Positions 18,404 through 32,813 of a DNA stretch of 36,809 nucleotides are shown piece after piece. The notes below the pieces were generated by a model. The model was not told where the DNA came from, searched no databases, and saw only the letters and a list, made by a program, of their open reading frames with translations. The DNA is from a virus. The DNA lies in the IMG/VR virus record IMGVR_UViG_3300025646_000148, positions 1 to 36,809 of that record. The stretch is one strand, 5' to 3'. Every line of letters starts with the position of its first letter. Position 1 is the first letter of the stretch. The position numbers and the translations under genes are program-made.

Positions 18404-19800
18404 CGAGTGAGGTTGGCCCCTGGAAATCCACCAAATGGAAGTGCTCCCTTTAGGCCAAAGCGTAAACGACAGCTCTGAAGACGTTTCCCGCATTTATCAC
18501 GCTTCCTTACCTCGTCATCAGCGGGAAGAGCCGCGTAAGCTGCGTTAAGCGCCGCCAAGGCATCATTGTATTCCACCACAGCGTCGTCATAAGTAGTCAC
18601 TGCATTGCCATAGTTGGTTGTCAATACGCCACAGCGCGGATTGGTATAGTCCAATTTGGCAATGCTTCTCATTGGAGAAAAACCATCGCTGGCATAATTG
18701 CCAATGTCATAGCCGGCAGAGGATGAATTAGGGCGCACAGGAACAATGCTTCCATTGACGATCAAAATTGAACTGCCATTGGCATCTTTAATTGCAAAAG
18801 TAGAGCTGCTAAATCCTAAATTTATTTTGTCCAATCCACCACCTGGCGCGGGCACCCATTGCACAACTTTATACGCTGGTCCGGTGCCATTCTTTCCAGT
18901 GCCAGGCCCGCGATTTGTCCTCTGCTTTAGATCTGGACGGTAAGGAGGTCGGTCCCCGGTGGATCGAACCGCAACGCCATCCCACACTGCAACAATGGTA
19001 TTGCCATCACCATCTTGAATGACGAAAGAATAGCTATTAACCGCATCTTCTTTAAAGACAAATAATACCTTTTCAGTGTCCGCAGCATTAGGGTCGCAAG
19101 CTGACTCTTTTTGCCCGAACAAATTATTTTTCTTAGCTTCCGTACTAGCAAGCCTTGACTTGGCCGCACCAAACGCTTCATACGCCGCTAAATATGCCTG
19201 CCCTGCCGCAGAAGAAGCTCCACTGATCGTGATAGTTTGATCGTATTCGTTTGCAACCGCCGGCCCCGTGTAGCCGCATTCAGCGCCGCGATATCTCCAT
19301 AGGCAATAGTTCTGCGTAATAATTCTCTTTGGAAGTTGAAGCCCCTCTAAATCAATCTTGCTAGCAAGTTGCCACGTAATAGTAATGCTGCTTTCGGCGA
19401 CTTTACGCTCGATGTAAAACACATCGTCGGGAAATTCTTGCGATGGATCAGGAGAACTGCCGCCATCAAGATATTTCATCAATGTGCGACGTCTCGTCAC
19501 CTTTGCGCCAACAAGATCGTCCAACGTATTAACCACTGAAGCCAACGTCCCTAAGACGTTGGCCACTGTTAGTTCTGGCGTAGGAATTTGCCCTTTTGTA
19601 GTACGCTCAAAACCTGCTGCCTGAATTGGCAATGGCTCATACGTTTTTGTTTGCCAGACAATTTTTGTATTGTCCGGCATTAAATTTGCCGTGAAATAAT
19701 ACTTATCACTGGCACTACCAGTAATAGATTCCAGGTCTATTTCAAATAGCTCAATGATGGCGTCATGCCACGTTTGCGATACGTCTTGTTGAATCGTCAT
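18400..19800 (-). CDS. L: Tail tip protein L homologue with large insertion
   Basis: This 466-residue protein is about twice the size of lambda gpL (232 aa). It keeps the family core (FTANLMPDNTKIVWQTKTYE, ITWQLASKIDLEGLQLPKRI) and four cysteines in lambda-like spacing: Cys166 and Cys175 (9 apart, NYCLWRYRGAECGY) and Cys437 and Cys444 (7 apart, DKCGKRLQSCRLRFG). In lambda these cysteines bind an iron-sulfur cluster. Here about 260 residues separate the two pairs, against about 23 in lambda as I recall it. The insert contains two similar beta segments (FVIQDGDGNTIVAVW, FAIKDANGSSILIVN). The ATG at 19800 is chosen because AGGGA lies at good spacing. A TTG at 19806 would have none. Confidence 0.9.
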   Translation of the reverse strand: MTIQQDVSQTWHDAIIELFEIDLESITGSASDKYYFTANLMPDNTKIVWQTKTYEPLPIQAAGFERTTKGQIPTPELTVANVLGTLASVVNTLDDLVGAKVTRRRTLMKYLDGGSSPDPSQEFPDDVFYIERKVAESSITITWQLASKIDLEGLQLPKRIITQNYCLWRYRGAECGYTGPAVANEYDQTITISGASSAAGQAYLAAYEAFGAAKSRLASTEAKKNNLFGQKESACDPNAADTEKVLFVFKEDAVNSYSFVIQDGDGNTIVAVWDGVAVRSTGDRPPYRPDLKQRTNRGPGTGKNGTGPAYKVVQWVPAPGGGLDKINLGFSSSTFAIKDANGSSILIVNGSIVPVRPNSSSAGYDIGNYASDGFSPMRSIAKLDYTNPRCGVLTTNYGNAVTTYDDAVVEYNDALAALNAAYAALPADDEVRKRDKCGKRLQSCRLRFGLKGALPFGGFPGANLTR

Positions 19801-20161: not shown

Positions 20162-23100
20162 TCAGCGTCCGCTATAGATGAGGCCGCCGGGGCGGGTTTC
20201 TTTCATGATGACATTACGAACAGCGCCTTCGATTTCGCGACCCAGTGCCTGACCGCCGCGTCCGCTCACCTGAGAGGAAGATTGACCGTTGTTCATGTTG
20301 ACAACAATGTTAGTAGAAATGTTATTGCCAGCACCCTGTCCAAGGTCCACTGGGATGCTCTTGCCGTTGGGCAGGGGCACTACAGCCTCGTTAAATCGTC
20401 CTTCGCCCACAAGGCCCAGCGTGGGGCCAGTTACAAGGCCTCCGGTTGCAAATTGACGAATACCAAAGTTTGGGCCAAATGTGCCAAATCCTTGGTTTCC
20501 AGCATTTTGAATGATGCCACCGCCAGCGCCAATGCCCACACTTGAAGGCATTGCTACCGATCCGCCAAGCTTCGTTCCACCAGCAAAAGTCCCTGCACCA
20601 GGCAAGAACATGCCAACGATTTGCATAAAAGCCCATTTGGCAAGCATTTGAGTAACCATGTCAGCGAACATGCTGGCCACGCTTCTGAACGCATTGCCAA
20701 GCCCTTCTTTCCAGCTTTGTGCGCCTGTAATGATGTCAGTGAATGCTTTGCTAAACGCATCACCAAAGCCCTGCGCGGCGCTAGTGATTACGGTGGTTCC
20801 ATCCATGAGCAATTCAAGCTCATCCTTCGTCTTTTTATAGGCTTCGCCAAGGCTTCCAACCACTGGAGTGACTGCTTGCAACTGCTCCAATCGCGCCACC
20901 TGTTCCGGCGTTCCATTCTTTTTGGCCTCTGCTAAATCTGTCTCAAATCCCCTTTGCTGCTTGCGGCGAGCAGCTTCTAAAGGACTTAGCAGACCCGCAG
21001 CAACTTCAGCATCTTCGATAAGTTCAAGAATCTGCATGCGCTTTTGCCTTTCTTTCTCAAGCTCCCCCTCTCTTTTCTTTGCGGCCGTAATGGCATCGGC
21101 AGAATGCTTTTGGAAAATAGTGGCAACCTCCCAAGCAAGGTCTTTGCGCTTCGCTTCAAGATCAGCAAGCTTTTCCGTAGGATCAATGCCGTTTGCAATC
21201 AATGCTGCAGCCTGCTCCCTAACCCTCTTAATTGTTTCATCAATCGCCAAAATATTTAGCGAAGCCTTCTGATATGCGCCCGCATATTTAATCATGCGTT
21301 CGGCGTCTTCTTGATTTTCCCCGTACTTAATTTGTCCTGTAGGATCTGTTCCGCGAACGACGTTAGCAAGCTGCTCCTGTATGCCATACTCCAATGCTGA
21401 AAGGCTATTGTCAAGCCATCTCGCAATATCGCCACCAATCAAGTCTGCCATGCTCTTCGTCTTGCCATTCTTATCTTTTCCGGGCTCAAGAGTTATTTTT
21501 TCAAGCCTTTGATTTCGCTCGCTTGCCTTAATCGCCTGTCGCGATGCTTCCGCTTCTGCTTCGTCTGCATCGCCAAGTTGGTTAAGCAGCGTAATCCTTC
21601 TGCGCTGGGCAATCTCAAGATTTGCCTGGATCTGTCCTTGCCCGCCCAAAAGTGGCGACATAACGGACTTGGCCACCCCGCCCACGTAAGAAATGCCGCT
21701 AGCTGTACCAGTACGCTTAAGCGTTTCGTAATCTGCTTCACTAATTCGCGTTGGCCTTTCTTTTATTTTTTCAAGAATTCGGACTGCTTTTTCAATGGAT
21801 TGAAGCTCTGTTTCTAGGAGCTGCTTTCTTCCTTGAACTTCAGCAAGCTGGCCGGCGGCGGCAAGAGAATCAAGATCTACTTTTGCTCTTCTGGCTTCTG
21901 CCGCCACATCGCGAATGGCGCTACCAACATTCATGAATCGTTGAACCAACGCATCAATAGCGAACAAAACGCCAGCACCAACCGCCCCTAGTACAACGGT
22001 CTTAAAGCCAAGTACTGCAACTTTTGCAAGATTTGTCGTATTGATCAAACTAAGGAATGCACTCACCATCGACATAATGCCTGCGATGTACACGCGGAGT
22101 TGCGCGATGTTCAGAGTGGCAACAAAACGCAACATTGCTACTGTTGCGGGAATAATCCCAGATGCGCTAAGCAAGCCCCACGCCGCCGTCAGTAAACCCA
22201 CTTCAATGGCAATTCGCGTTAACCATTGACCAAGACCAGTATTGAACAAACGAGCAATGTATTCGGTTGCCGTCAATAACAGACCACCAAGTCGTATCAG
22301 TGCAGTGCCAAGCTCTCCGGTAATAATTCCTTCTAAGGACTTAGCGATTTCAGCGACTTGACCCAGGGCGTTGTACATCGCCAGTCCATTGGAACTAAGT
22401 TCGGCAGTCGGATTGGCGGCCCCATTCATGCCAGCGGTAAAAGCCTTCACTGCTTCTGCCGCATCGACGACGACAGTTTCAATCTGCGGGAAGAGGGTGG
22501 AGGCGACAACGCTCACGAGCGGCTCAAAGCTTTCGTACATCAGCTTCACCGCCGTTGTCAGACCATTCAGCGCCCCCTGCAATGTGTTGGCAGCGTTGGC
22601 AGCAGCACCCCCGTACTCAGTGTTCAGCAGCTTACCCACGTTGCGAAGCACCTGCCCCATTGCCTCGGCCTTAAAGGCCCCATCTTCCATGGCCTCCAAG
22701 AACGTTCCGATGTCCATCTGCGCGGCCCTTGCGAACAAGGACAAAGCACCAGGCATTACGTCGCCAAGCTGGTTCTTCACCTCTTCTGCCGACAATTGCC
22801 CCTTGCTTGCCATTTGAGCAAAGGCATTCGTCACGCGATTCACCTCGTCGGTGCTCATGCCAAAGGTGGCGGCAGCCTTGGAGACGCCGATAAATAGATT
22901 CTCAATATCGCCCTTGGCAATTCCTGCTGGCTCCATCGAGGCATACATCCGAATAAAACCGGCGCGTGCGCTTTCCAGGGGGATATTTAACTGCGAAACA
23001 ACATCGCTCACAAATGCGAACGCTTGTTCAGCCTGAGCTGTTCCTCCGGTAACAGCTTCAAGCTGGTTTCTGAATGTCTGGAGAGCCGTTGCCGCGTTTA

Positions 23101-24919
23101 GTGCTTCTCTCGGCAGATTAGTTACAAAAGCAAGAGCCTTGTATGCAGTGCCAAACAACAGCACTTGCTTAACGGCACTGCCAAATTCTGCGCCAAGCTC
23201 TCTAATCGCGCCAGTTAATGGGAACTTTGATTGCTGGAAGAAGGAAAAGTCAATCGGCGAGGCGGCAGAAGACCTAGATGGCTGGGGTTGATATGGGACA
23301 ATCGCTCCTCCCTTTGGTGGCTGAGCAAAAGGCCTATAAGGTCCAGCAGGGCCACTTCCTCCAGCTCCCAGCGCAAACCCTTGCGGGCTCTCAGCCATGA
23401 CACTCGCCCCACGCAGGGCCGATCTCGCGTAGGCCTGGGCAATGCGATTTTGGATGAATGACCCCCTATCGGCAGGGCCTCCGTAAGTGGCCGGAGTTCG
23501 ACCAACGGCGGAAGGCAACAGACCACGGATCATTGAAGGTGGCAAAGCCTGCCGCCCTATCTCCCGGACGTTTACTTGACGAATACGTGCATTTAATGAA
23601 TCAACAAAAGTGAAGGCCGCATTACGGAGAATGTTCTGAAGGTCTTGCCCAATCTGTGGAGGGAGAAATCCTCGCGCTCCAAACGCTGTCCCTGGCAGCG
23701 CCCCAGGAATAGCGCCAGCAGGCAAAGCTCGACCAGTCCCGGAAGGTCCAATTGAAACCCTCGATGGAGGAACTGTGGCTGGAAAATCCACGCCAGGCAA
23801 CGCTCTGCGTTGCGCAGCTTGACGTTTTAAATATTCAGGATCAACACCAGCCATCCAAAAGACGGCACGCGCAACTTGGTCGAGGAAGCCACGTTTGACC
23901 CGCCTGGGGTCATTCATGTTCATCTGCAAATTGCCAAGCACGCTTTCCATTGCAGCGTCATCTAGCTGCATTAAGCGCTCACGCATCGCTGCGCTGCTTC
24001 TTATGCTGCTGCGACCCTGGACTTTCGCCCGGCGCATCATGTCCTGCAGCTCTCTATTAGAAGCCTGCGCAACTGCTGCTTCAAATTGAGTGCGGCGACC
24101 AGCCTGTGCGGCTCCGGGCACGTTGCCACCCGAAAGCCCTTGGGTCCGCATGTATTCATACAAACCAGCGGCACCAGTCTGTCCTGATGCAAAACCGGCT
24201 TGTACGTCTGCCTTAATTTTGACGCTAAGACCTGAGAATTTTTCTTCTACAGTTCTCTTGAATCCGGCAATGTCTGCATTCGTAATTGCAGGCTTGATAC
24301 TGAGTCCAACGCGGAGCTTACCGCTGCCTTGCTTGACTGCTTGATTCTGATTTATTCGGCCCCTGATTCCAGTGATGATATCTGCAACATCCTTTCCACT
24401 AGCGGCATTTTTAATGCTGATAGACACATCAGCCTTATTGGTTATTCCAGCAAATTTTTCTTTGACTGCATTCTTGAATTTTGCAATATCATCATTTGAA
24501 ATGGACGCCTGAATGCTGACGCCAATACGCAGCTTCCCTCCGCCTTGTTTAACCGACTGATTCTGAGCAATGCGTGATCGCAGCGCCGTAATAGCATCGG
24601 AGATTTCTTTGCCAGTGGCAGCATTTTTAATGCTGACAGGCACTTCAATTTTTTTGCGCTGACTAATAGTGTCTAAACGCCCTTGCAGCTCTTCAAAGGT
24701 TTTTTTGCTTAAATTACCGGCAATATTTAGCTCGATATTGTATTTCCGTCTTTTTATCGCCTTTTGTAAATCATTCAGTTCTCGGTCAATAACCTGCCTG
24801 TCAAGCTTGATCTTGATAGGCGCAGTAAATTCCGACGCGGCAATTCGGCCAAGCTTTTGAAGCTGCTGGCGAAAATATACAAGATCAAACGATACGCCAA
24901 GCCGGAGTTCCGCCGCCAT
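20162..24919 (-). CDS. Tape measure protein
   Basis: This 1585-residue protein sets tail length and is probably carried inside the tail tube, with delivery into the cell on infection. The N-terminal region has a 72-residue tandem duplication (about 91-162 and 163-234; SIKNAATGKE and SIKNAASGKD). The tape measure domain (about 590-760) has LPREALNAATALQTFRNQLE, FIRMYASMEPAGI and LSAEEVKNQLGDVMPGAL. Hydrophobic segments (about 915-1010, LLTAAWGLLSASGII and VVLGAVGAGVLFAIDAL) could enter the host membrane. A charged helical part follows, then a glycine-rich C-terminus with LGLVGEGRFNEAVVPLPNG. The start is the ATG at 24919. Confidence 0.95.
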   Translation of the reverse strand: MAAELRLGVSFDLVYFRQQLQKLGRIAASEFTAPIKIKLDRQVIDRELNDLQKAIKRRKYNIELNIAGNLSKKTFEELQGRLDTISQRKKIEVPVSIKNAATGKEISDAITALRSRIAQNQSVKQGGGKLRIGVSIQASISNDDIAKFKNAVKEKFAGITNKADVSISIKNAASGKDVADIITGIRGRINQNQAVKQGSGKLRVGLSIKPAITNADIAGFKRTVEEKFSGLSVKIKADVQAGFASGQTGAAGLYEYMRTQGLSGGNVPGAAQAGRRTQFEAAVAQASNRELQDMMRRAKVQGRSSIRSSAAMRERLMQLDDAAMESVLGNLQMNMNDPRRVKRGFLDQVARAVFWMAGVDPEYLKRQAAQRRALPGVDFPATVPPSRVSIGPSGTGRALPAGAIPGALPGTAFGARGFLPPQIGQDLQNILRNAAFTFVDSLNARIRQVNVREIGRQALPPSMIRGLLPSAVGRTPATYGGPADRGSFIQNRIAQAYARSALRGASVMAESPQGFALGAGGSGPAGPYRPFAQPPKGGAIVPYQPQPSRSSAASPIDFSFFQQSKFPLTGAIRELGAEFGSAVKQVLLFGTAYKALAFVTNLPREALNAATALQTFRNQLEAVTGGTAQAEQAFAFVSDVVSQLNIPLESARAGFIRMYASMEPAGIAKGDIENLFIGVSKAAATFGMSTDEVNRVTNAFAQMASKGQLSAEEVKNQLGDVMPGALSLFARAAQMDIGTFLEAMEDGAFKAEAMGQVLRNVGKLLNTEYGGAAANAANTLQGALNGLTTAVKLMYESFEPLVSVVASTLFPQIETVVVDAAEAVKAFTAGMNGAANPTAELSSNGLAMYNALGQVAEIAKSLEGIITGELGTALIRLGGLLLTATEYIARLFNTGLGQWLTRIAIEVGLLTAAWGLLSASGIIPATVAMLRFVATLNIAQLRVYIAGIMSMVSAFLSLINTTNLAKVAVLGFKTVVLGAVGAGVLFAIDALVQRFMNVGSAIRDVAAEARRAKVDLDSLAAAGQLAEVQGRKQLLETELQSIEKAVRILEKIKERPTRISEADYETLKRTGTASGISYVGGVAKSVMSPLLGGQGQIQANLEIAQRRRITLLNQLGDADEAEAEASRQAIKASERNQRLEKITLEPGKDKNGKTKSMADLIGGDIARWLDNSLSALEYGIQEQLANVVRGTDPTGQIKYGENQEDAERMIKYAGAYQKASLNILAIDETIKRVREQAAALIANGIDPTEKLADLEAKRKDLAWEVATIFQKHSADAITAAKKREGELEKERQKRMQILELIEDAEVAAGLLSPLEAARRKQQRGFETDLAEAKKNGTPEQVARLEQLQAVTPVVGSLGEAYKKTKDELELLMDGTTVITSAAQGFGDAFSKAFTDIITGAQSWKEGLGNAFRSVASMFADMVTQMLAKWAFMQIVGMFLPGAGTFAGGTKLGGSVAMPSSVGIGAGGGIIQNAGNQGFGTFGPNFGIRQFATGGLVTGPTLGLVGEGRFNEAVVPLPNGKSIPVDLGQGAGNNISTNIVVNMNNGQSSSQVSGRGGQALGREIEGAVRNVIMKETRPGGLIYSGR
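24218..24649 (-). repeat. Two tandem 72-codon repeats in the tape measure gene
   Basis: Codons 91-162 and 163-234 encode matching blocks with identical or conservative residues in most positions. Examples are KNAATGKEISDAITALRSRI against KNAASGKDVADIITGIRGRI, and KLRIGVSIQASI against KLRVGLSIKPAI. The repeat is at protein level with partial DNA identity, which suggests an old in-frame duplication. Confidence 0.85.
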
Positions 24920-24971: not shown

Positions 24972-25439
24972 TTACTCATCACCTCGCATTGAAGCATTTT
25001 TTAGTTCTTCTGCCAGCATAGAAACCACTCTTGCATCCATCTTGCGCGTCTTCATTAGACGCTTCAGCACTGCAGCGCTTTCTTCCGTGATGCCAGTTTC
25101 TTTCTTGAGTTTGCGAGTGTCAAATGGCAAAAAGTCGTCGGCAGTCACTGACACCTTCTTGCCTCCCAATGCATGAGCGACCATTGCAGCCATCTTGGCC
25201 ACTGAAACGCTTTGCAAATTAAACTGCGTGTGATCGTGCCGCTCTAGAAATTTCAGAGCGGCTAGCACGTCCTTCACTTTTTGCTGAGAGAAATTCTCCG
25301 GCCCCCATCGATCATCCTTCAGACACGATGCGTTGAGCCGGAAAAAGATGGCGTTCCAATCAGTAAGTCCCTTTAGGAACGCTCTTGCCTTCTTCTCTAC
25401 TCGTTCGGCGAGGCTTCCTGCCTCGCCTTCCTCTTCGAT
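24972..25439 (-). CDS. Tail assembly chaperone C-terminal part, made by -1 frameshift (T-like)
   Basis: This frame encodes the second part of a lambda GT-like chaperone fusion. It has no good start of its own (only a GTG at 25277, inside the domain), but it is open from the slippery A AAA AAA (25439-25445) of the upstream gene. After a -1 shift the sequence continues IEEEGEAGSLAERVEKKA, then LTDWNAIFFRLNASCLKDDRWGPENFSQ and the KVKDVLAALKFLERH segment. It adds 155 residues, giving a fusion of about 323. By analogy with lambda GT it recruits the tail tube protein to the tape measure during assembly. The gene lies just before the tape measure, as expected. Confidence 0.82.
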   Translation of the reverse strand: MEEEGEAGSLAERVEKKARAFLKGLTDWNAIFFRLNASCLKDDRWGPENFSQQKVKDVLAALKFLERHDHTQFNLQSVSVAKMAAMVAHALGGKKVSVTADDFLPFDTRKLKKETGITEESAAVLKRLMKTRKMDARVVSMLAEELKNASMRGDE

Positions 25440-25942
25440 TTTTTTGCTTGTGCTGCTTTCACCTCCGCATCTTGCTCTTCTGCAATAAATTCCAGCATCC
25501 TGGTTTGCATCTCACGGGTCATGGTCTTAGTGTCTTCGATAGACCAATCGTCAAGGCGCTGCCAATCATCACCGATCTTGCCTTCACCACGGCAACGCAT
25601 GAATGCCGTGATCAGCCTGGCATTGCCAAGCTCTGCAGAGCCACCAGAGGTGACCATGGAGAGAGTTTCTTCAGTGTATTCCGACAGAAGCTCAGCCTCA
25701 GAGAAGCCACCGCCACCCTGCAGCATTTCAAAGGCTTCATCCAGGGGGATATCCTTGGCCGCTGCAATCTTCTTTGCAAGCTGCACTGCCTTGATAGTGC
25801 TCTGGCTTTGAGACTTAGAAATCTCCTCTTGCTCAATGCTTTCAGCAACGAGCCAGCCACCATGGCGCTGCAAACGCAGCGTCGGAGTGAGTTCAAAGTA
25901 ACTGACTTCTTCAGATGCCAGTAGGAAGCTGTACTTGCTCAT
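25397..25942 (-). CDS. Tail assembly chaperone (G-like)
   Basis: This 181-residue protein starts MSKYSFLLASEEVSYFELTP. It is acidic and helical in the middle (AFEMLQGGGGFSEAELLSEY) and ends in a lysine-rich tail (AAQAKKSKRKARQEASPNE). Its size, its position just ahead of the tape measure, and the slippery A AAA AAA near its 3' end identify it as the lambda gpG counterpart. Most ribosomes should make this short form and a minority the fusion. It is not expected to remain in the virion. The start overlaps the upstream gene by 32 nt. Confidence 0.88.
   Translation of the reverse strand: MSKYSFLLASEEVSYFELTPTLRLQRHGGWLVAESIEQEEISKSQSQSTIKAVQLAKKIAAAKDIPLDEAFEMLQGGGGFSEAELLSEYTEETLSMVTSGGSAELGNARLITAFMRCRGEGKIGDDWQRLDDWSIEDTKTMTREMQTRMLEFIAEEQDAEVKAAQAKKSKRKARQEASPNE
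25407..25445 (-). promoter_or_regulatory. Programmed -1 frameshift site of the tail chaperone
   Basis: The slippery heptamer A AAA AAA (25439-25445, in frame as GCA AAA AAA) is followed after 11 nt by a perfect 8-bp hairpin (GGCGAGGC, 5-nt loop, GCCTCGCC; 25407-25427). A -1 shift moves into the frame that runs open to 24972. The zero frame ends at the TAG at 25397-25399. Confidence 0.8.
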
Positions 25943-30350: not shown

Positions 30351-30971
30351 TTACTTAGCCTCCTTAGAAATGGAGAGAGGGGACTTCCAGGCATTCTGCA
30401 GCTTCTCCATATAGGAAGAAGGAGCAGAAGCAGGGGTGGCAATCGAAGCCACTGCCTTACGCAGATCCTCAGTGGAATCGGCGCGGTTGGCAGCGTCTTC
30501 AGAGATGGTGTCAAACATTGCCAGAACGTAGTCGTCGGAACGCTCGTCCAGGGCAACAGAATCGCCGCGAACTGCCTTGATGGAATCAACCATCACTTCG
30601 CGGTCGCTCTTGCCGCTGAATTCATAAGCGGCATCTAGTACGGGCTTAGCCTTGGAGATGAGGGCCAGGCGCTCTTCAACGATGGAATCAACGTTGATTT
30701 GTTTGGCCTCTTCCAGTTCAGCCTTCAGGGAGTCAACTTGCTCGGCCAGAGCATCGGCCCGCCCTTCAGCGGAATCCATTTTGCCCTTCATTTCCTCAGC
30801 CATGGCGTCCATTTCGGACTTCATGGAATCAGCAGCGGCCTGCAGCTCGTCGTACTTCTTCTTCATGTCCTCATAGGACATCTTGGCGTCTTCTCGTTCT
30901 TTGGTGATCGCCAGAGCAACGCTCTCGCTCACCTCAAACTCAGCGCCGTCAAAATTGACTTTTGCGCTCAT
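30351..30971 (-). CDS. Nested in-frame scaffold protein (predicted)
   Basis: A second start (ATG at 30971, beginning MSAKVNFDGAEFEVSESVAL) in the protease/scaffold gene is preceded by a Shine-Dalgarno-like GAGGA. It would yield the scaffold domain alone (206 residues, mostly coiled coil). Lambda Nu3 and similar phage scaffolds are made in the same way. The existence of the separate product is inferred from the ribosome site and the domain boundary. Confidence 0.55.
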   Translation of the reverse strand: MSAKVNFDGAEFEVSESVALAITKEREDAKMSYEDMKKKYDELQAAADSMKSEMDAMAEEMKGKMDSAEGRADALAEQVDSLKAELEEAKQINVDSIVEERLALISKAKPVLDAAYEFSGKSDREVMVDSIKAVRGDSVALDERSDDYVLAMFDTISEDAANRADSTEDLRKAVASIATPASAPSSYMEKLQNAWKSPLSISKEAK

Positions 30972-31547
30972 GGTTTGGTTTTCCTCAGTGGAAATTAGAG
31001 ATGGATCAGCGGCATCTAGACGATCCAAATGCAGCCTCACCTGCGGGCCAGCTCGGCCTCGGCGAACGATAGCAACGTGATTACCACTGATCTCCTTTTG
31101 GATACCGTCGTAATGCTCACCGTTATCGGTAACGCCAGGCGTCGGATCATAATTGACCCTATAGCCAGCGCTCACTTCACGAACATCGCCGCGCATCACC
31201 CTATCAATAGTTTCGCGGTCAGTCACGGTCATGACGGCTTTAACAAAGCCATTGTCATAAACGATTTCCGAACCAGTAAAACCGATTTGGTAATCCTTGG
31301 TGTTTTCGCTGTCCAAAAGAACAGGAGGATGTTCCATCGTGATTGCCTTCCCCGCAAATGAGGCAAGGCTTTCTGGAGACGCCACTTCAGTCTCAGGACG
31401 GAATTCCTTCCTGATAGAACCGTCAGCATCGGTGTAATGCTGAATGCCAGTACGAGCAATTGAAGCCCACACCCGAAGATAACCTTCAGGTGTCATTTCA
31501 TATTTCTCGATAGGAGAAACGTCGTACCGACAAGATGTGGTGCTCAT
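30351..31547 (-). CDS. Prohead protease fused to scaffold (DUF2213)
   Basis: This 398-residue protein combines an N-terminal protease (about residues 1-180) with a C-terminal scaffold (193-398). Likely catalytic residues are His73 (MEHPP), Ser126 (EVSAGYRVN) and His157 (GNHVAIVRRG); which of them act is inference. The scaffold part is a long charged coiled coil (MKKKYDELQAAADSMKSEMD and following heptads). Met193 (ATG at 30971) is preceded by GAGGA, about 10 nt upstream, so a separate scaffold of 206 residues can be made, as in lambda C/Nu3. It is the first minus-strand gene after the divergent regulator. Confidence 0.9.
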   Translation of the reverse strand: MSTTSCRYDVSPIEKYEMTPEGYLRVWASIARTGIQHYTDADGSIRKEFRPETEVASPESLASFAGKAITMEHPPVLLDSENTKDYQIGFTGSEIVYDNGFVKAVMTVTDRETIDRVMRGDVREVSAGYRVNYDPTPGVTDNGEHYDGIQKEISGNHVAIVRRGRAGPQVRLHLDRLDAADPSLISTEENQTMSAKVNFDGAEFEVSESVALAITKEREDAKMSYEDMKKKYDELQAAADSMKSEMDAMAEEMKGKMDSAEGRADALAEQVDSLKAELEEAKQINVDSIVEERLALISKAKPVLDAAYEFSGKSDREVMVDSIKAVRGDSVALDERSDDYVLAMFDTISEDAANRADSTEDLRKAVASIATPASAPSSYMEKLQNAWKSPLSISKEAK

Positions 31548-31607: not shown

Positions 31608-31898
31608 ATGACGCAAAAAAGGCTAACGGCCCGTAAAGTAAAAAGCCCGCAAAGTTCCCTCTCGGAAGCCAAGATTCTCATTGGTTCCCGAGTGCGGGAA
31701 GCTCGCCTTGGCTGCGGACTTTCGCAGCGAGCCCTAGCAGAAATTCTTTACTGCGATCAAGCAACAGTGTCCCGTATTGAAAACGGCATCCTCGCGCCAG
31801 ACATCGCTCAAATCAAAGTAATGAGTGGCGTGTTTCAACTCAGCGTGCTGTGGTTAATGGGCTACCCATCATTCGTAGTCCACGCCACACAAGATTAA
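31608..31898 (+). CDS. XRE-family transcriptional regulator
   Basis: This 96-residue protein is the only plus-strand gene in the window. Residues about 26-80 form an XRE / HTH_3 domain: IGSRVREARLGCGLSQRALA, then a CDQATVSRIENG recognition segment, and LQFSV-like residues (FQLSVLWLMGY) at the end. The first 20 residues are basic and probably disordered. An inverted repeat lies 10 bp upstream. The gene converges on the small acidic protein gene and overlaps its stop by 4 nt. It probably regulates itself and possibly the divergent head genes. No Shine-Dalgarno is visible. Confidence 0.85.
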   Translation: MTQKRLTARKVKSPQSSLSEAKILIGSRVREARLGCGLSQRALAEILYCDQATVSRIENGILAPDIAQIKVMSGVFQLSVLWLMGYPSFVVHATQD

Positions 31899-32208: not shown

Positions 32209-32562
32209 CTATTTTGAGCGCTTTTCCAACATCTTAAGCATGCGTTTTGCCCAGGCTCTCCCGGCATCGCCTCCCCATAGTTGCCAAGCGATGTAACCGG
32301 CATCATTTTCACCGCCACTCTTGTTCTTTTCGTGGCGCGAAAAGAACGCAACCATGCGACGAAGAGTGGCCTCGCTCACTTTCATGCCATTGGCCAGGCT
32401 CGTAGCCCTAGCCACGCCACTGCCAATCCCTTGTTTCCCGGCCTCTCCAGTGGTGAGACCTCCCTTTCCGTGCTTTCGACGCAGCTCAAGGCCGCGCCGT
32501 GCAGCATTTCTTACTACCTGGGGAGGGGCGAAGCCTTCAGCGTCGCCCCTTAGCGCTTTTTT
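32209..32562 (-). CDS. LWGGDAG-motif domain, likely made by -1 frameshift fusion
   Basis: This frame has no ATG. The only in-frame near-starts are a CTG at 32484 and a GTG at 32415, both inside the conserved domain. The open frame encodes ALRGDAEGFAPPQVVRNAAR, then RGLELRRKHGKGG, SEATLRRMVAFFSRHEKNK, and AGYIAWQLWGGDAGRAWAKR. That set (PP-x-V, GLELR, RRM-x-FF-x-RHE, IAW-x-LWGGDAG) is a module I know from phage head-region proteins. It follows directly from the DUF6496-like gene by a -1 shift at A AAA AAG. The fusion would be 201 residues (86 + 115). The function is unknown, but position favours a head-maturation or packaging factor. Confidence 0.78.
   Translation of the reverse strand, partial: KKALRGDAEGFAPPQVVRNAARRGLELRRKHGKGGLTTGEAGKQGIGSGVARATSLANGMKVSEATLRRMVAFFSRHEKNKSGGENDAGYIAWQLWGGDAGRAWAKRMLKMLEKRSK
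32524..32562 (-). promoter_or_regulatory. Programmed -1 frameshift site (A AAA AAG plus hairpin)
   Basis: The in-frame heptamer A AAA AAG (32556-32562, as GAA AAA AAG) is followed by a 5-nt spacer and a perfect 8-bp hairpin (AGGGGCGA, 11-nt loop, TCGCCCCT; 32524-32550). The zero-frame stop TAA overlaps the start of the stem. The layout is that of E. coli dnaX. A -1 shift enters the LWGGDAG frame with no stop. Confidence 0.8.
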
Positions 32563-32813
32563 TCACAAGAACCATCTTCCATCTCTTCCTCTTCTTCCAT
32601 TCCTTCCTTGCTCATCGAACCACACATGGTGTCGATGTAGGCATCCCAATAAGCATCGCTCTTGCCCTTCTTTTCCATGCCAGCTTCGCTCATCGCAATG
32701 GCGATGGCTTGCTGGCGGCTCTGCACCGGCTTTCCGTCGCTGCCCTTCAGGGTTCCAGCCTTGAACTCGCGCATCACCTTGCGAACCTTCGCTTGCTTTT
32801 GCTTAGCGGTCAT
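32550..32813 (-). CDS. DUF6496-like small protein, zero frame
   Basis: This 87-residue protein begins MTAKQKQAKVRKVMREFKAG and has the SRQQAIAIAMSEAG motif of a family that I recognise as DUF6496-like. The end is acidic (MEEEEEMEDG) and reads EKKR before the stop. The ATG at 32813 overlaps the methyltransferase stop (ATGA); six further codons upstream would overlap more and are not used. The main product may be this short protein, with a minority fusion via the frameshift. The family function is not known to me, though it is frequent in phage head regions. Confidence 0.8.
   Translation of the reverse strand: MTAKQKQAKVRKVMREFKAGTLKGSDGKPVQSRQQAIAIAMSEAGMEKKGKSDAYWDAYIDTMCGSMSKEGMEEEEEMEDGSCEKKR

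Follow-up and report, generated by a model that had tools for sequence, protein, structure and literature searches.

How does a phage make a protein domain whose reading frame has no start codon ahead of it; namely, is the LWGGDAG domain translated from a separate gene, or is it reached from the preceding DUF6496 gene by ribosomes that change frame? The question arises in a viral sequence of 36,809 nucleotides (IMG/VR record IMGVR_UViG_3300025646_000148; analysed over its whole length and referred to here as the window), for which a sequence-only reading had proposed a −1 frameshift that fuses the two domains. Sequence evidence from the window and its relatives leads us to predict, with high confidence, that the pair uses programmed −1 ribosomal frameshifting.

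Two reading frames beside the head protease gene

The upstream open reading frame (ORF) matches DUF6496 above the gathering cut-off of 24 bits (Pfam PF20106, E = 1.6 × 10−9, score 38.4 bits), and homologues of its protein in viral contigs reach 94% amino acid identity. It lies on the minus strand and ends in TGT GAA AAA AAG CGC TAA, the last five codons of which the sequence-only reading had given as the end of a DUF6496-like gene. The heptamer A_AAA_AAG, 5-nt spacer and perfect 8-bp stem named in that reading were recovered as well, with the heptamer in the right phase (Table 1). In the −1 frame a TGA abuts the heptamer on its 5′ side, so that the two frames overlap by just 13 nt (the shift window) and the −1 frame can be entered solely at or after the heptamer. 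A −1 slip made in silico yields a fusion with the sequence ...SCEKKALRGDAEG... that meets no stop and continues via ALRGDAEGF through the 114-amino-acid LWGGDAG domain to position 32209; translation thus reproduces the claimed 201-amino-acid product. The further claim that the downstream frame lacks an ATG stood in part. ATG codons do exist in this frame, solely inside the conserved domain (NGMKV, RRMVAFF and KRMLKM), and no ATG, GTG or TTG lies ahead of the domain core in the window; the earliest possible start of any type is a GTG at 32415, within the domain.

Table 1. Features of the predicted frameshift locus and the nearby protease gene in the window
Feature	Position	Strand	Basis
Head maturation protease (DUF2213, phrog_530)	30351..31547	−	Profile matches
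DUF6496 zero-frame ORF, 87 aa	32550..32813	−	ATG at 32813, TAA at 32552-32550
−1-frame TGA, immediately 5′ of heptamer	32563..32565	−	Sequence
Slippery heptamer A_AAA_AAG, zero-frame phase	32556..32562	−	Sequence and conservation
Zero-frame TAA stop, one codon past heptamer	32550..32552	−	Sequence
Stem 5′ arm AGGGGCGA, spacer 5 nt from heptamer	32543..32550	−	Fold and covariation
Stem 3′ arm TCGCCCCT	32524..32531	−	Fold and covariation
−1-frame ORF with LWGGDAG domain, heptamer to TAG	32209..32562	−	Reading frame and substitution bias
Predicted frameshift product, 201-aa DUF6496–LWGGDAG fusion	32209..32813	−	Translation; single-frame natural versions

The genes of the window contain 30 in-frame X_XXY_YYZ heptamers, just three of which are followed by at least 100 open −1 codons: the site at 32562-32556, a tail-chaperone site at 25445, and a site at 18451, where the overlapping gene downstream has an ATG of its own. 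The second of these is a separate −1 candidate of the tail-chaperone type, formed by ORFs at 25397-25942 and 24972-25445 (both minus strand), in which A_AAA_AAA is followed by 157 open −1 codons that lead to an ORF with no ATG to start it; the tape measure gene (20162-24919) lies immediately downstream.

A methyltransferase gene lies to one side of the pair and the head protease gene to the other. Among relatives with enough flanking sequence, the DUF2213 head protease and a small intervening gene lie downstream of the pair in 84 of 84 clusters, which bears out the head-region placement suggested earlier. The methyltransferase and DUF6496 genes of the window overlap by 4 nt (32810-32813) and the HNH endonuclease gene that separates them on the opposite strand in Synechococcus phage S-CBS4 (L161:2140-2655) is absent. 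A small regulator-like gene (31608-31898, plus strand) lies between the head protease and the pair on the opposite strand, in the same place as the transcriptional regulator gp021 of S-CBS4.

Conservation of the junction across relatives

The comparative set of 402 loci was gathered by scanning IMG/VR four times and GTDB genomes once, and counts the window and four annotated-phage loci. In profile searches of these loci, the two halves were offset by −1 in 237 cases, 123 of them with different sequence, and shared a single frame in 11. Clustering of the shifted junctions at 92% nucleotide identity over 182 nt gave 98 clusters. The carriers are aquatic phages related to S-CBS4, the nearest cultured phage, which shares 82% nucleotide identity with the window over an 8-kb region. 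One frameshift pair sits on a contig of a Rhodobiaceae metagenome-assembled genome (MAG) in GTDB (L323, NYTN01000090.1); this contig is probably viral and was co-binned with the MAG.

All 98 clusters carry an in-frame X_XXA_AAG heptamer at the junction (A_AAA_AAG in 78, G_GGA_AAG in 16 and C_CCA_AAG in 4), and all three forms are reported to be highly shift-prone in Escherichia coli (PMC5009743), in keeping with the earlier statement that the heptamer of the window is among the most efficient bacterial slippery sites. Conservation or loss of the heptamer had been put forward as a check; all 98 clusters, those of close relatives among them, have either kept it or exchanged it for another shifty heptamer. 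The preceding codon varies in the amino acid that it encodes, and its third base equals XX in every cluster: AAA follows GGA, AGA, GAA, GCA or TCA; GGA follows CTG, ATG, GAG or GCG; and CCA follows TCC, CCC or GGC. GGA precedes A_AAA_AAG in 54 clusters, and elsewhere in these ORFs accounts for 86 of 720 glycine codons. Against 98 of 98 junctions with X_XXA_AAG, the motif is found at 5 of the 8116 codon positions elsewhere in the same ORFs, and none of their 158 other Lys–Lys dicodons takes the A_AAA_AAG form. On a tree of the downstream domain, from which the junction columns were omitted, the heptamer type changes about 15 times among four states; several of these changes are forced by well-supported branches, and some may be due to recombination at the junction. 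The zero-frame stop occupies the same place in most of the 98 clusters and follows AAG immediately in some; two apparent exceptions (L059/L252 and L138) have it further downstream. One locus has one A fewer than its near-twin (L005 and L006), probably a sequencing error. Upstream of the related junctions, purine-rich 4-mers resembling a Shine–Dalgarno element occur at many distances, with no fixed one.

The stem of the window lies within the minimum-energy fold (z = −2.0). Across clusters it starts 5–6 nt past the heptamer, and it is fully paired in 92 of 98 when G-U is counted, the other 6 having a mismatch. At alignment columns 18–34, the 67 distinct rows comprise 34 C-G, 26 A-U, 6 U-G and 1 G-U pairs and none that is broken; counted over 68 sequences, C-G has given way to A-U in 27. 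At two neighbouring pairs, G-C is also replaced by A-U. The covariation score of 0.213 compares with a mean of 0.119 for shuffled alignments and 0.020–0.105 for slid versions of the stem, and RNAalifold gave the same picture. We acknowledge that the stem falls within a conserved peptide, RGDAEGFAPP, so that its conservation is partly at the protein level; however, the A-U pairs combine a silent glycine change (GGC to GGA) with replacement of alanine by serine (GCC to TCC), which argues for selection on the RNA. The stem is present and covaries, and is a putative stimulatory structure close downstream of the heptamer. In one locus that retains C_CCA_AAG (L182, 2480-2524), the stem at the usual place is gone, and a different structure may substitute for it.

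Downstream of the junction, 5831 of 9169 substitutions across relatives affect the third codon position in the −1 frame; by this measure, the frame is under protein-level constraint. A search for relatives in which the two domains share one frame, a check that the sequence-only reading had suggested, found eight distinct fusions (L056, L077, L133/L282, L175, L304, L317, L320 and L322), most of which adjoin the same head-region genes. The heptamer is lost in seven of the eight. The remaining one, a single contig represented by L133 and L282, retains the A-run, extended by one A; this fusion may have arisen recently or reflect an error in sequencing. The arginine codon is AGG in 96 of 98 shifted clusters compared with CGN in six of the eight fusions, and the stem is broken in five of the eight, with the protein retained.

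The LWGGDAG domain and its partners

The LWGGDAG domain matches PHROG 2859, a family whose function is not known (E = 4 × 10−17); it has no match in Pfam, and its best score in NCBIfam is at chance level (E = 0.08). In other phages, the domain lies at the ends of head proteins: it is joined to an XkdF-type protease in Limnohabitans DC31, to a protease–capsid polyprotein in Roseobacter CRP-811, to a MuF protein (L326) and to a lambda-type portal (L211), and further matches fall within ORFs annotated as prohead protease (HGTV-1) and major capsid protein (S-CBS1). Many bacterial chromosomes (those of Mesorhizobium, Xanthomonas and others) encode the domain by itself. It recurs at loci L162, L164, L211, L326, L403, L404 and L405, and on one viral contig it shares a 1105-amino-acid ORF with a phosphatidylserine decarboxylase domain (L194:1208-4522). 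A role in DNA transactions, raised by a topoisomerase IB gene beside a free-standing LWGGDAG gene in Brevundimonas, was dropped, as this arrangement was found at 1 of 80 genome loci.

The fold predicted for a natural fusion of 216 amino acids has a pLDDT of 87. Comparison of this model with solved structures gave no clear match (best Foldseek E = 0.62; in a further comparison, best Z = 3.8), and a sequence search of the Protein Data Bank gave no convincing one. The predicted viral structures that matched were mostly other phage proteins bearing the LWGGDAG domain, and are uninformative on function.

Expression, role and relation to known systems

We infer a slip from the heptamer and the stem, both of which are shown by sequence and conservation. 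Most ribosomes would stop at the TAA and release the 87-amino-acid DUF6496 protein; the stem would hold up a fraction of them, which would slip back by one base on A_AAA_AAG and continue in the −1 frame to give the fusion. The pair could instead be two separate genes, with the LWGGDAG domain starting itself at a GTG or TTG or being reached by termination–reinitiation at the DUF6496 stop. S-CBS4 is annotated with two coding sequences, the domain stands alone in many bacterial genomes, and the stretch of the −1 frame that was searched contains a GTG or TTG in 79 of 98 clusters; however, no start position is common to the 98 clusters, 19 have no ATG, GTG or TTG in that stretch and none has an ATG there, which answers the earlier suggestion to look for relatives with an ATG in front of the domain. 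Two genes would also leave unexplained the invariant heptamer, its exchanges among A, G and C, the stem and the natural fusions, and we consider this arrangement very unlikely. Runs of A are prone to slippage, and the window has seven in a row, at which a polymerase might add or drop an A to yield an altered mRNA that is translated normally into the fusion. Yet 20 of the 98 clusters have G_GGA_AAG or C_CCA_AAG with the same layout and the stem retained, and the lack of a long homopolymer in these forms argues against transcriptional slippage, which moreover needs neither a downstream stem nor the zero-frame phase; we regard it as slightly less probable still. The least credible alternative is that the locus is in truth one fused gene broken by sequencing error or decay. 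Single-frame fusions do exist and homopolymer errors are probably present in the set, as in the one-A difference between near-twins, but the same break with a shifty heptamer is common to 98 clusters and to the cultured S-CBS4, and the downstream frame is constrained as protein. The cultured phage and the number of separate contigs refute this explanation in practice, and programmed ribosomal frameshifting is by far the best account of the junction.

The head-protease neighbourhood of the frameshift pair, together with the fusions of LWGGDAG to head proteins in other phages, suggests that the pair most likely serves in building the head or within the virion, either as an assembly component or as cargo. 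The shift would then provide fewer copies of LWGGDAG than of the DUF6496 part, whether during assembly or within the virion. The frameshift could also be real and its product an injected or cytoplasmic effector, with LWGGDAG as a head-loading tag or as part of the effector. The position of the domain at the ends of MuF, portal and protease proteins fits this idea, given that packaging is presumed for phage polyvalent proteins fused to MuF or portal proteins (PMC5512222), as does its occurrence alone in bacterial chromosomes; against it, no effector domain was found and LWGGDAG has no Pfam match, and we hold it to be possible but doubtful. We offer as speculation, and with comparably little confidence, a wider proposal: that frameshifting in the head module fixes a low copy number of a head-loaded LWGGDAG fusion, such that ribosome slipping would count components of heads as well as tails, and that LWGGDAG serves tailed phages generally as a procapsid-docking domain that still lacks a name.

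No open-access paper that we found names DUF6496 or reports this frameshift, in agreement with the earlier statement that none was known for this pair of domains, and the PRFect paper makes no mention of cyanophages. The locus appears to be new for this gene pair, and the predicted mechanism is of a known kind. It is well supported and widespread, in viral contigs and in one cultured phage. With its three interchanging heptamers, covarying stem and recurrent fusions, it is well suited to testing what phages require of a frameshift signal. It also draws attention to a domain, as yet without a name, that is found repeatedly in head protease, capsid, portal and MuF proteins and whose role is now directly testable.

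Among known systems, the lambda G/GT pair shares with this locus the X_XXA_AAG class of heptamer and, on the prediction made here, a −1 slip towards the 3′ end of a short late gene by which a minor part of the product gains a second domain; G_GGA_AAG, as in 16 of our clusters, also serves the g–t pair of virus HCTV-5 (PMC5009743). The genes here are different (DUF6496 and LWGGDAG, in the head-protease region), and the pair does not lie just upstream of the tape measure gene, where the window has its separate G/GT-like site at 25445. E. coli dnaX has the identical A_AAA_AAG and a GC-rich stem close downstream, but its shifted product is the short one, whereas the long one is predicted here, and it has an upstream Shine–Dalgarno-like stimulator, whereas no element at a fixed distance is found here. 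Capsid genes also shift frame, as in T7 10A/10B. For the major head protein of phage A2, a capsid-gene frameshift is cited in PMC10885494. As predicted for this locus, these cases involve −1 shifting where a head gene ends, with a minor, C-terminally extended product; the base protein here is the small DUF6496 protein and not the major capsid protein. The closest counterpart is S-CBS4 itself (HQ698895), which has the same gene pair, heptamer and stem but in which gp018 and gp019 are annotated as two independent hypothetical proteins, with no frameshift marked and with gp019 starting at a GTG 14 codons in; this annotation of the pair is probably wrong.
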